The notes under the pieces: model-generated
Databases searched by the model: none
Seen by the model: only the letters and a program-made list of their open reading frames with translations
Told to the model about the DNA's origin: nothing
From: a virus
Strand: one strand, 5' to 3'
Length of the DNA: 41,889 nucleotides
IMG/VR virus record: IMGVR_UViG_3300027759_000164
Coordinates: 1-41,889 of that record
Shown: piece by piece, positions 16,228-31,119 of the stretch
Numbering within the stretch: the stretch's first letter is position 1
Layout of the letters: each line of letters starts with the position of its first letter
Translations under genes and position numbers: made by a program

Positions 16228-17856
16228 ATGAGTGAAAATAATATCCTCAAAGTCAGAAAAAGAGATGGTACCTTGGTTCCTTTTAATGTAGACAACATCA
16301 ACAAAGTTATTATATGGGCAACTCAAGAAATAACCGGTGTTAGTATTTCAGACATTGAAATTAATACCAAATTAAACCTTGTAGATGGTATCTCTACTAA
16401 AGAAATCCATAAAGTGTTAGTAGAATCTGCTATTAATCTTTTTAATGAAGAAAATCCCAATTATCAATGGGTAGCTTCTCGGTTATTAAGTTATCAATTG
16501 CGTAAAGATGTGTGGGGAGGAAAAAATCCCCCGAAATTTTATGATTTTATAGAAGCCAATGTTGAAAGAAAAATATATCACCCGGAGATTCTTCAACACT
16601 ATACCAAGGCGGAAATAGATAAATTAGATGAAAAGATAGTTCATAACAGAGATTATGACTTTACATATTCAGGCCTCAAACAATTGTGTGATAAATATTT
16701 GATTCAAAATCGTAAGAGCAAAGAAATTTACGAAACACCCCAGTTTGCCTATATGATGGCAGCCATGGTGAGCTACATGAAATATCCACCAGAAAACCGA
16801 TTACAATATGTTAAAAGAGCCTACGACCGATTTAGTAAATTTAAAATCAATTTACCCACACCCCAAATGGCGGGTATCCGCGGTTTGCTTAAACAGTATG
16901 CGTCGTGTTGCCTCATTGATGTGGATGATACTAAGGAGTCTATTTTTAGTTCCAATACTGCTGCTGGCTTTGCTACTACTCAGCGATACGGAATCGGATT
17001 AAATTTTGGAAGGATTCGCGGTATCGGCACTGAAATTAAAAATGGCAGCGTTATTCACACTGGAGTAATTCCTTTTCTCAAGGTATTTGAAGCCACCGTC
17101 AAAAGTTGTCAACAAAACGGAATTCGTGGCGGCGGCGCTACTGTAAATTTTCCGTTCTGGCACTATGAAATAGAAGATGTTTTATCTCTTAAAAACAACG
17201 GAGGAACAGAAGACAATCGAGTTCGTAAAGTTGATTATGTGATACAATTTTCCAAGATCTTTTATGAACGCTTCATGAAAAATGAATCAATCACTTTGTT
17301 TTCCTCACATGAAGTACCAGATTTGACAGAAGCGTTTGGTCTTCCTCATTTTGATGAATTGTATGAAAAATATGAATCAGATAAAAATATTCGTTATAAG
17401 AGAAAAGTGAAGGCCAGTTCTTTGATGTCTCAATTTGTAAAGGAACGTACTGAAACTGGTCGCCTATATGTGATGAATATTGATCATTGCAATGAACACG
17501 GATCCTTTTTGGAGAGAGTATCTATGACTAATCTGTGTTTAGTTGGAGAAACCTTAATTGATATCAGCACCGCGATATACGGTGACCTGACAATTCAAAT
17601 TAAAGATCTTGAAAAATATATGCAAGAAGGTACAGTACATATTAGATCATATGATATTGCAGCAGATACTAATGCAGTCTCATTAATTAGTGCGTTTGCA
17701 CAGACCGGTGTATCTGAAGAGTTAATTGAAATTGAAGATGAAACTACCGGTTATACAATTCAATGCACTCCAGAACATAAGATTTACACTCACAATCGAG
17801 GGTATGTGGAAGCAAAAGATCTGCTTGTAACAGATATTCTTGTATTAGACGCTTAA
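16228..17856 (+). CDS. nrdA: NrdA N-terminal half fused to split intein N-part (fractured gene)
   Basis: 542 residues: 436 of N-extein plus 106 of intein. The N-extein carries an ATP-cone domain (about residues 5-95), the substrate-site cysteine C227 in 'YASCCLID' (E. coli C225 equivalent) and 'RLYVMNIDHCNEHGSF', and stops at '...SMTNL', just before the active-site loop. From C437 ('CLVGETLIDIS') the sequence is an intein N-segment with 'TIQCTPEHKIYTHNRGYVEAKDL' (block B type). The frame then stops at TAA. The remaining NrdA lies downstream at 18745-19794, so active class I ribonucleotide reductase alpha needs protein trans-splicing. TAAATAAA lies 17 nt upstream. Confidence 0.93.
   Translation: MSENNILKVRKRDGTLVPFNVDNINKVIIWATQEITGVSISDIEINTKLNLVDGISTKEIHKVLVESAINLFNEENPNYQWVASRLLSYQLRKDVWGGKNPPKFYDFIEANVERKIYHPEILQHYTKAEIDKLDEKIVHNRDYDFTYSGLKQLCDKYLIQNRKSKEIYETPQFAYMMAAMVSYMKYPPENRLQYVKRAYDRFSKFKINLPTPQMAGIRGLLKQYASCCLIDVDDTKESIFSSNTAAGFATTQRYGIGLNFGRIRGIGTEIKNGSVIHTGVIPFLKVFEATVKSCQQNGIRGGGATVNFPFWHYEIEDVLSLKNNGGTEDNRVRKVDYVIQFSKIFYERFMKNESITLFSSHEVPDLTEAFGLPHFDELYEKYESDKNIRYKRKVKASSLMSQFVKERTETGRLYVMNIDHCNEHGSFLERVSMTNLCLVGETLIDISTAIYGDLTIQIKDLEKYMQEGTVHIRSYDIAADTNAVSLISAFAQTGVSEELIEIEDETTGYTIQCTPEHKIYTHNRGYVEAKDLLVTDILVLDA
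17536..17856 (+). other. Split intein N-fragment (IntN) coding segment
   Basis: 106 codons starting with the catalytic Cys1 (TGT at 17536). Block A 'CLVGETLI' and block B 'CTPEHKIYT' with the conserved TxxH-type histidine are visible. The insertion lies after 'NL' of the class I NrdA motif N-L-C-x-E. Confidence 0.9.
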
Positions 17857-17897
17857 TATCCATGACCTCAGAGCATAAGTAATTATGTAACGAGATT

Positions 17898-18740
17898 ATG
17901 AATTACAAAAATATACACGACAAATTAATTAATTATTGCAGACAAACAACTCCAAGATTTAGGCTTGAGCAAAGAAATCTAAAAGACTTAAGACTTAAAA
18001 ATAATCACATATATGTTGAAGTACATCACATAATTCCAAGATCTCTTGAAGGAACAGATATGATTAATAATCTTGTTACACTACTACCAGAAGAGCATAT
18101 TTTTATTCATATGCTTCGATGGAAAATATTTAATATTAGAAACGACATACTTGCAGTAAGATTCTGTTTAAATGGATATAATAAAAATAAAACATGTAAG
18201 CCAGTGTACAGCCTCACTAAATCTCTCCGTATGGGGTACGCCTGGTTAAAACATCAGTCTGCAACAGTGAGAGAAACTACCGGATGGCAAACCCCAGAAG
18301 GTCGTCAACGAATATCAGAAGCGAGAAAAGGTACAGTGGTGGTAAAAGATGCTACTACCGGCATTATTATCGGTTCTGTAGAAACCACTCACCCCAAAAT
18401 AAAAAGCGGCGAGTGGGTACATCACTCAAAAGGCAGAAAAGCTAGCTTAAAAGAAAGAATAAAGCTAAAAGAGCGTTCTAAAGGTATTAAAAATTCAAAC
18501 TCTTGCGGTTTAAATGATAGCTATTTTATTGAAAAGGGTATAGAATTATCTAAAGAATTTAACCGAATTATTAATTGGCAAGAGATGTATATTTTATCTA
18601 AAGAGAGAAACTTTGTATGGATGGTGGCTTGCGCGTGCCGGTTTAACCGTGCCGGGCAGCTAGGTTTTATAAAAGCCGTAAAAGAAGCGACTGGGCTGAA
18701 ATACGACCCTTACTATTCAAGACGCATTAAAAATAAATAA
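17898..18740 (+). CDS. Free-standing HNH homing endonuclease between nrdA halves
   Basis: 280 residues. The HNH core is at residues 43-71: 'HHIIPRSLEGTDMINNLVTLLPEEHIFIH', with the HH pair, central Asn and final H. Residues about 135-205 hold repeated Lys/Arg-rich NUMOD3-like stretches ('RISEARKG', 'GRKASLKERIKLKE') that usually bind DNA. It sits 41 bp after the IntN stop and 4 bp before the IntC start, the arrangement known from 'fractured genes' with split inteins, where the endonuclease spreads the insertion. The reading frame is intact. Confidence 0.88.
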   Translation: MNYKNIHDKLINYCRQTTPRFRLEQRNLKDLRLKNNHIYVEVHHIIPRSLEGTDMINNLVTLLPEEHIFIHMLRWKIFNIRNDILAVRFCLNGYNKNKTCKPVYSLTKSLRMGYAWLKHQSATVRETTGWQTPEGRQRISEARKGTVVVKDATTGIIIGSVETTHPKIKSGEWVHHSKGRKASLKERIKLKERSKGIKNSNSCGLNDSYFIEKGIELSKEFNRIINWQEMYILSKERNFVWMVACACRFNRAGQLGFIKAVKEATGLKYDPYYSRRIKNK

Positions 18741-18744
18741 GATT

Positions 18745-18843
18745 ATGTTAAAAATTAAAAAAATTAAAAAAAATGTACCTGTGTATGATATTACTGTTCA
18801 GCACACACAAAACTTCTTTGCTAATAAAATACTAGTGCATAAC
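18745..18843 (+). other. Split intein C-fragment (IntC) coding segment
   Basis: 33 codons ending at Asn (AAC 18841-18843); the next codon TGC (18844) is the +1 Cys. Length and sequence are typical of the C-parts of naturally split inteins. Confidence 0.9.
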
Positions 18844-19794
18844 TGCGTAGAAGTGACACATCCCACAAAACCTCTACAGCATATTGATGACCCTGAAGGA
18901 GAGATTGGTATATGTGTTCTCTCAGCCATCAACGTGCTAGAAATTAAGGATGATCAAGATTTGGCTGATACTTGCGATATCATTGTTCGCATGTTGGATG
19001 AATTAATTGATTATCAAGATTACTTCACCAAAGCAGCAGAGAACTTTACAAAGAAACGTAGAAGTCTTGGAGTTGGTATCACCAACCTAGCGGCTTTGTT
19101 AGCCAAAAACAATCTTAAGTACACTGACAAGGAAGCTCCTAATTTTGTAGACGCTTTGATGGAAAAAATACAATATAATCTTATTTCTTCTTCCGTTAAT
19201 CTGGCAGCAGAAAAAGGTGTGTGTGAAAAATTTGAAAGCACAAAATATTCCAAAGGCATTCTTCCTATAGACACTTACAAGAAGAAAATTGATAGCATAA
19301 TTACAAGAAAACCTTCTCTAGATTGGGAGGCTTTGCGTCAAAGGGTGGTATCGACTGGCATGAGACATTCTACACTGACAGCTCTTATGCCGTGTGAATC
19401 TAGTTCAGTCATTCAAAACACTACAAACGGCATTGAACCGCCCCGCTCTTTGTTGACATACAAAGGGTCTAAAGCCAATTCTGTTCCGGTTCTGGTTCCA
19501 AATTATTCCACTTGTAAAAATAAATATACTCTTCAATTTGACATGCAGGATAACATAGGATATATTAATATTGTTGCTGCCTTACAGAAGTGGGTAGATA
19601 TGTCAATTTCTACAAACCTTTATTACAATTATGACCATTATCCTAACAAGGCTCTTCCGGATTCAATGCTTATAAAAGAATTATTATATGCATACAGCAT
19701 GGGAGTTAAGACGCTGTATTACAGCAACACATATGACGGCGATAAACAATCAGCTACAGATGAAGGATGTGCCAGCGGAGCCTGTAGCATATAG
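18745..19794 (+). CDS. nrdA: Split intein C-part fused to NrdA C-terminal half
   Basis: 349 residues: a 33-residue IntC ending in 'NKILVHN', then a 316-residue C-extein beginning 'CVEVTHPTKPLQH'. IntC shows 'VPVYDITVQHTQNFFA' (block F) and the terminal His-Asn (block G). The C-extein starts with the predicted thiyl-radical cysteine (E. coli C439) and contains 'GEIGICVLSAIN' (C462 equivalent), the 'LYYSN' radical-transfer tyrosine pair and the C-terminal 'GCASGACSI' redox cysteines. Both exteins joined give 752 residues, matching full-length NrdA (E. coli 761). Confidence 0.93.
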   Translation: MLKIKKIKKNVPVYDITVQHTQNFFANKILVHNCVEVTHPTKPLQHIDDPEGEIGICVLSAINVLEIKDDQDLADTCDIIVRMLDELIDYQDYFTKAAENFTKKRRSLGVGITNLAALLAKNNLKYTDKEAPNFVDALMEKIQYNLISSSVNLAAEKGVCEKFESTKYSKGILPIDTYKKKIDSIITRKPSLDWEALRQRVVSTGMRHSTLTALMPCESSSVIQNTTNGIEPPRSLLTYKGSKANSVPVLVPNYSTCKNKYTLQFDMQDNIGYINIVAALQKWVDMSISTNLYYNYDHYPNKALPDSMLIKELLYAYSMGVKTLYYSNTYDGDKQSATDEGCASGACSI

Positions 19795-30657: not shown

Positions 30658-31084
30658 TGGTGGAGGCGAGGGGAGTTGAACCCCTGTCCTGAAAACTTAG
30701 ACTTTAGCGTCTACAATCATATTTTGTTAACATTTTAAGACCAAAGGTTGTTAACTAGTTTTGGGTCTACCTATTGATTAGTAAGGGAACCAATTCCTCT
30801 CGATTTTTATTTTCAAAGCACTACACGATCTGGTGCTACAACCTATTGTGTTACTCCAGAAAATTTTAATAGGATCCATTTCTGTTTGTTAGGCTGCTAG
30901 GGCATATTCTTCATCAGCGATGAACGAGTCAGCGTTGTTGAAGATATATTCTGCTTCAGCTAAGAGTGCTTCTGTATTATCAGTTGCATTTATTTGTTTT
31001 GTCCAGAGATTTTAACGAGGCCAACCAGACTTCCTCGGATTGCAACTAAAGTTTTCAGCGCTCAGTCGAAACCAATACGCCCCC
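30658..31084 (-). ncRNA. ssrA: Transfer-messenger RNA (tmRNA)
   Basis: 427 nt. The ends form a 7-bp acceptor stem (5' GGGGGCG with 3' CGCCTCC, one G.U pair), discriminator A and encoded CCA (30658-30660). The 3' T-arm 'GGACAGGGGTTCAACTCCCC' and the 5' 'TTGGTTTCGACTGAGCGC' are the conserved tRNA-like parts of tmRNA. The reading frame ending in TAA at 30889-30891 runs back to GCA at 30985-30987, giving 32 codons that end in 'FIADEEYALAA'. The YALAA end is the classic proteolysis tag. It is a one-piece tmRNA on the minus strand between two phage genes and looks complete. Confidence 0.9.
30889..30987 (-). other. tmRNA tag reading frame (32 codons plus stop)
   Basis: Starts 'ATDNTEALLAEAEYIF', continues through NNADS and ends 'FIADEEYALAA' then TAA. 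The resume codon cannot be proved; GCA 30987-30985 is the best candidate because it begins with Ala and stays in frame. Known host tags are usually about 8-35 residues, and long acidic tags have been reported for some phage tmRNAs. Confidence 0.6.
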
Positions 31085-31119
31085 AAATATAAAAGATCTA
31101 TAAACAATATACCACAAGC

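Follow-up and report, generated by a model that had tools for sequence, protein, structure and literature searches.

A phage tmRNA with a 32-codon acidic tag belongs to a large family of long-tagged viral tmRNAs that share a conserved tag core

Why would a phage carry a tmRNA gene whose tag appears to run to 32 codons, and is a peptide of that length under selection as such? The commonest tmRNA tag is 10 amino acids long, and phage sequences account for only 79 of 97,179 sequences in a curated tmRNA database (PMC11915505). We addressed these questions for the only tmRNA in an IMG/VR record of 41,889 bases (IMGVR_UViG_3300027759_000164, analyzed over its full length and hereafter called the window). 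An initial annotation, made from the sequence without database searches, had described it as a complete phage-encoded tmRNA with a long acidic tag.

The gene was recovered by two methods. ARAGORN called a tmRNA at exactly 30658-31084 on the (-) strand and predicted a 32-amino-acid tag. The Rfam covariance model RF00023 matched over all of its positions (1-374 of 374) with 136.4 bits (cut-off, 47 bits; E = 2e-53). The acceptor pairs G1-C72, G2-C71, and G3.U70 can be read directly from the sequence, and the 3' CCA is encoded. With the full-length model match, G3.U70, CCA, and pseudoknot 1 (PK1), the window has the features of a one-piece tmRNA, and these sequence analyses confirmed that the gene is complete, as first proposed, with an intact PK1 (Table 1). 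Among 60 distinct relatives, the acceptor pairs were preserved in 57 to 60, G3.U70 in 59, and the T-stem in all 60. Standard pairs of PK1 stem 1 were retained in 56 to 60 relatives, with A-T/C-G/G-C exchanges, and compensatory changes also marked PK1 stem 2 and H2, which was likewise preserved.

Table 1. Features of the tmRNA locus in the window.
Feature	Position	Strand	Basis
Complete one-piece tmRNA gene, 427 nt	30658..31084	(-)	ARAGORN and RF00023
tRNA-like domain, 5' half: acceptor GGGGGCG, D-loop TATTGG, TTCGAC	31058..31084	(-)	ARAGORN domains
tRNA-like domain, 3' half: canonical T-arm AGGGG-TTCAACT-CCCCT, acceptor, encoded CCA	30658..30696	(-)	ARAGORN domains
Pseudoknot 1, two stems, 5' of the resume codon	31001..31037	(-)	Pairing and compensatory changes in relatives
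Resume signal UAAAU; -4 A corresponds to E. coli A86	30988..30992	(-)	Conservation in relatives, E. coli rules (PMC2481249)
Tag frame from the resume codon GCA through TAA, ATDNTEALLAEAEYIFNNADSFIADEEYALAA	30889..30987	(-)	ARAGORN; selected as peptide, the first seven codons included
Conserved tag core LLAEAEYIFNNADSFI, codons 8-23, predicted amphipathic helix	30919..30966	(-)	Alignment, pN/pS, AF2
ssrA-like C-terminus EYALAA	30892..30909	(-)	Tag ends of relatives, pN/pS
Leader GATCTTTTA	31090..31098	(-)	Likeness to the boxA-like TCTTTG(A/T) motif of most relatives

The window phage is contractile-tailed and distantly T4-like (tail sheath, tail tube, PhoH, ribonucleotide reductase, and cytidyltransferase). 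When NrdB and the tail sheath were used to search for a host, only distant T4-like relatives were matched, and a search with the neighboring 420-aa gene found no relatives. Upstream of the tmRNA, a boxA-like motif, TCTTTG(A/T), is present no more than 35 nt from the 5' end in 49 of 65 relatives. This motif is a putative leader element, from which the window's own leader departs.

To characterize the tag, we scanned 2.9 million viral contigs with a degenerate pattern for AEYIFN(N/D)A. This yielded 99 loci, all but three of which were long tags of the window kind (three of these tags end at contig edges); with relaxed patterns, the set grew to 118 loci and 72 distinct tag peptides. Most tags are 32 to 35 aa long, and three have 45 or 46 aa. 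The family is marked by A(E/D)DNT at the N-terminus, LLAEAEYIFNNADEFL as the core, and a ClpX-like LAA end; the window tag belongs to it by its A(E/D/T)DNT start, LLAEAEYxxNNA core, and length of about 32 aa. In an alignment of 62 tags, the window tag was 48 to 84% identical to the 61 others. A12, Y14, and N17 were invariant, net charge ranged from -8 to -12, and the tags contained a single Lys among them and lacked Arg, Trp, and Pro. LAA ends the tag in 44 of the 62 and AA in 48, while some family members have unusual ends (MFV, LLT, and LEA). The longest tags that we encountered, of 46 aa, came from loci L195, L197, and L198 (ANTAVDAEVDASVESLLAQADYIINNADEFLTEGGALVAETEAAVA).

A search for the core fixes part of the peptide, and three patterns outside the core served as controls. 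The 3' flank pattern hit 36 loci and the PK1 region of the window 6 contigs besides the window; the tmRNAs among these matches were all long-tagged, as was every tmRNA match to the A(E/D)DNT start. Motif-free scans recovered core variants as well (AEYIINNA, ATHIINNF, and AEADALLNSFEF). Such tags had been described as rare in phages, which did not stand up, given that the window tag belongs to a large family from uncultured phages. Judged by sequence, this large family of viral tmRNA tags, with a shared, selected, and virus-only core, is new.

The window tag itself comprises 32 codons, from GCA to TAA, and has a net charge of -8, in keeping with its first description as long and acidic. Compared by ARAGORN with the tags known to that program, it came out as "tag not identified," while the Bxz1 tag was recognized, and a text search of PMC for the tag strings returned no match. 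AF2, given the isolated peptide aligned with its own relatives only, predicted helices at residues 5-17, 19-22, and 26-31, with a pLDDT of 93 over residues 1-20. Profile matches between the tag and PDB entries had E values of 0.17 and above and were taken as chance.

Selection acts on the tag as a peptide. Across 73 distinct relatives, pN/pS over the 16 core codons was 0.13. The two shifted frames, with their many stops, gave 1.2 and 2.3; the tag frame contained no stop. These are pairwise counts made without a tree, in which relatedness is ignored, such that the contrast among frames carries more weight than the absolute values. The first seven codons had a pN/pS of 0.35 (1.27 and 1.19 in the other frames). 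The value was 0.57 for the last six codons, which form the C-terminal degron, and 0.97 for the 10 codons past the stop. Some core columns are fixed by the search pattern, a constraint from which the flanking codons and the motif-free scans are free; codons adjoining the search motif had pN/pS values of 0.16 and 0.28. Because pN/pS is low and stops are lacking in this frame, compared to the other frames and the codons past the stop, the length of the tag is not that of a chance open frame. Selection on the frame ends at the stop, the pattern predicted for a translated tag. At the level of sequence comparison, selection on the peptide thus covers the whole tag, strongest on the core, weaker on the degron, and absent past the stop, and the same comparison demonstrates the parts of the tmRNA and its resume codon.

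We propose, with a probability of roughly 0.6, that this is a functional phage tmRNA serving host-run ribosome rescue, which would append an acidic docking helix and a ClpX-type degron to stalled proteins. During infection, the host alanyl-tRNA synthetase (AlaRS) would charge the tmRNA with alanine via G3.U70, and host SmpB would bind it. Host SmpB is assumed. No SmpB was found in 42 phage records (10 of 14 control genomes were positive), a negative that falls short of proof because many of these records are fragments. The charged tmRNA would enter ribosomes stuck on messages that are broken or lack a stop codon, translation would restart at GCA, and the stalled protein would gain Ala plus a strongly acidic 32-residue tag, predicted to form an N-capped amphipathic helix (residues 5-22) followed by YALAA, a C-terminal degron of the ClpX type. 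This would release the ribosome, and the tagged product would presumably be degraded through its LAA end, an ending that argues against simple avoidance of ClpX. Since selection guards the helix more than the degron, the helix probably docks a host factor, such as a protease or an adaptor, which would explain the extra length. ClpP, a candidate partner, occurred in 4 of 27 phages and was set aside as too sporadic. As a precedent for a functional phage tmRNA, that of phage Wildcat is the most highly expressed lytic gene (PMC7474061), and proposed roles of viral tmRNAs include upkeep of the translation machinery and recycling of host protein (PMC9004378).

The aromatic helical segment could instead be a degron for Lon or another protease than ClpXP, as in Mollicutes, where the ssrA tag of Mesoplasma florum is also unusually long and is read by Lon (PMC9382460). 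The core holds the aromatic residues of the tag and is better conserved than its C-terminus, as this explanation would have it. However, the Mollicutes tag comes from a cellular gene, ends in NYAFA, and is a substrate of Lon where active ClpXP is lacking, while most members of the viral family retain LAA. We consider a Lon-type degron unlikely, albeit worth keeping in view. Degradation might also be beside the point, with the acidic helix titrating a host protease or adaptor, altering what becomes of host proteins that carry the tag, or serving the phage. The stronger selection on the helix than on the degron, the unusual ends of some members, and the virus-only distribution fit such a mainly non-degradative role. 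The degron-like end that most members keep does not, and we regard this role as distinctly unlikely.

Phage tmRNAs can come from cellular ones (PMC9004378), and the long tag might simply have been inherited from a host ssrA gene. This is improbable in light of a scan of 84,980 bacterial and archaeal species, with one genome per species and the same core pattern as in the viral scan, in which none of the 30 matches fell in a tmRNA. With this distribution, the tag looks tailored to viral use, not like an oddity. Searches of phage references were also made. By blastn against phage reference records, the matches of three family tmRNAs were all short and fell in conserved parts of the molecule, chiefly the T-arm. 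A tblastn search of INPHARED with the consensus tag found no match, which is no evidence of absence, as a control with the true Bxz1 tag was equally blank even though phage ET08 is in that collection.

Another possibility is that translation resumes further downstream and the tag is short (e.g., ADSFIADEEYALAA), the upstream open frame being accidental. ARAGORN does give shorter tags in several relatives, such as EAEYIFNNA... or AEEYALAA, and the initial annotation had named the Ala before DSFIADEEYALAA as an example of a start that would overturn its reading. The rules for E. coli put the resume codon 12 nt 3' of pseudoknot 1 and make A86, four bases before that codon, essential (PMC2481249). 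The GCA of the window, 13 nt 3' of PK1, is preceded at -4 by the diagnostic A, and the Rfam consensus GCA aligns to it at the start of the tag. In 60 distinct relatives, position -5 was T or C, A occupied -4 and -3 in every case, and PK1 was 11 to 14 nt from the resume codon. Furthermore, codons 1-7 and LLAE, on the 5' side of the Ala preceding DSFIADEEYALAA, are under selection as peptide, and the tag frame is without a stop in every relative. Given the consensus alignment, the PK1 spacing, the -4 A, and the peptide-selected codons that follow, we assign the resume codon to GCA, as was first suggested; a downstream start failed when checked and is very improbable. Conservation of the region as RNA structure has a negligible chance of being correct: a short hairpin is predicted within the tag, but its G-C pairs follow from two Ala codons, and synonymous sites vary almost freely while the amino acids are constrained.

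Phage tmRNAs, the 25-aa phage tag of the Bxz1 group, and the long, Lon-read tag of Mollicutes are already known. The window tmRNA has much in common with the standard RF00023 tmRNA of E. coli, including the tRNA-like domain, PK1, the -4 A, a GCA resume codon, and a (Y)ALAA end, and differs in its tag of 32 aa, where 10 is usual. The suggested likeness to the Bxz1 tag was upheld: ET08 (GQ303260) of this group also has a one-piece phage tmRNA and a long acidic tag starting with ATD (ATDTDATVTDAEIEAFFAEEAAALV, 25 aa). In contrast, the ET08 tag is shorter, lacks the shared core, ends in ALV, and belongs to a phage with a mycobacterial host. Membership in the Bxz1 group, taken as the same tag peptide or an alignable RNA, does not extend to the window, as the ET08 tag differs; no mycobacteriophage was among the blastn matches listed for the window tmRNA. 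Marine phages such as Melnitz, which is also T4-like, carry a tmRNA too (PMC9004378), but theirs is a permuted, two-piece gene, and the permuted viral tmRNAs that we encountered have tags of 13 to 15 aa. The family described here adds more than 70 distinct viral tags; these are three times as long as usual, and the part that is conserved best is not the known degron. The family makes testable why phages carry their own trans-translation and whether rescued proteins are re-addressed, and its conserved core could serve both as a defined bait for a partner and as an orthogonal tag that is ready for testing.

A second family of long tags, also from uncultured phages (loci L003, L018, L021, L024, and L211-L284), has tags of 23 to 25 aa with the consensus core FEDAMAFVGADYAVAA (e.g., AVELSTMTFEDAMAFVGADYAVAA). 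Like the window family, it has a conserved aromatic core ahead of the degron; unlike it, it belongs to another tmRNA lineage and has another core. Its resume codon is sometimes GAC or GGC, and ARAGORN miscalls some of its tags as AEEYALAA. The FxxAxxF(L/V) spacing common to both families is only a lead. By eye, the upstream sequences of L003 and L021 resemble Bacteroidota promoters, and the core was absent from 395 genomes of the phylum of Pontibacter (Bacteroidota). We tentatively raise the broader idea, for which we would claim less than even odds, that these tmRNAs form a widespread, undescribed viral class in which the tag is a small folded docking module, its acidic helix bringing one particular factor, of the host or the phage, to each protein that is rescued, and that such cores evolved in at least two phage lineages.

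The elbow of the window tmRNA is canonical. In some relatives, we observed a non-canonical T-loop, GGCAGNN (L046:62-474, L043:5518-5959, L045, L121, and L132), and a D-loop AAAGGA with T-loop TATCGTAN (L048, L053, L058, L079, L091, L099, and L109). On the middle-domain tree, the two loops change in concert several times; in some pairs, such as L046 and L068, both are changed while the intervening sequence of roughly 350 nt is nearly identical. CCA is encoded in all 19 genes with a non-canonical T-loop compared to 35 of 58 canonical ones (Fisher P = 4e-4), a difference that would follow if the altered elbow were unreadable to CCA-adding enzymes. A sign test on independent pairs was borderline, with a median P of 0.03 for D-loop with T-loop and 0.06 for CCA. 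Two long-tag viral tmRNAs have group I introns at the T-loop (L072:3844-4078 and L074:2569-2803; Rfam RF00028), and T-loop introns of tmRNA are known in bacteria (PMC11915505). At 16228-19794 of the window, the ribonucleotide reductase large subunit is encoded in two open reading frames of 542 and 349 aa, with an HNH-type homing endonuclease frame between them (17898-18740). Because the second piece begins with an intein C-terminal domain, the subunit is, by its sequence, probably a split intein "fractured gene."
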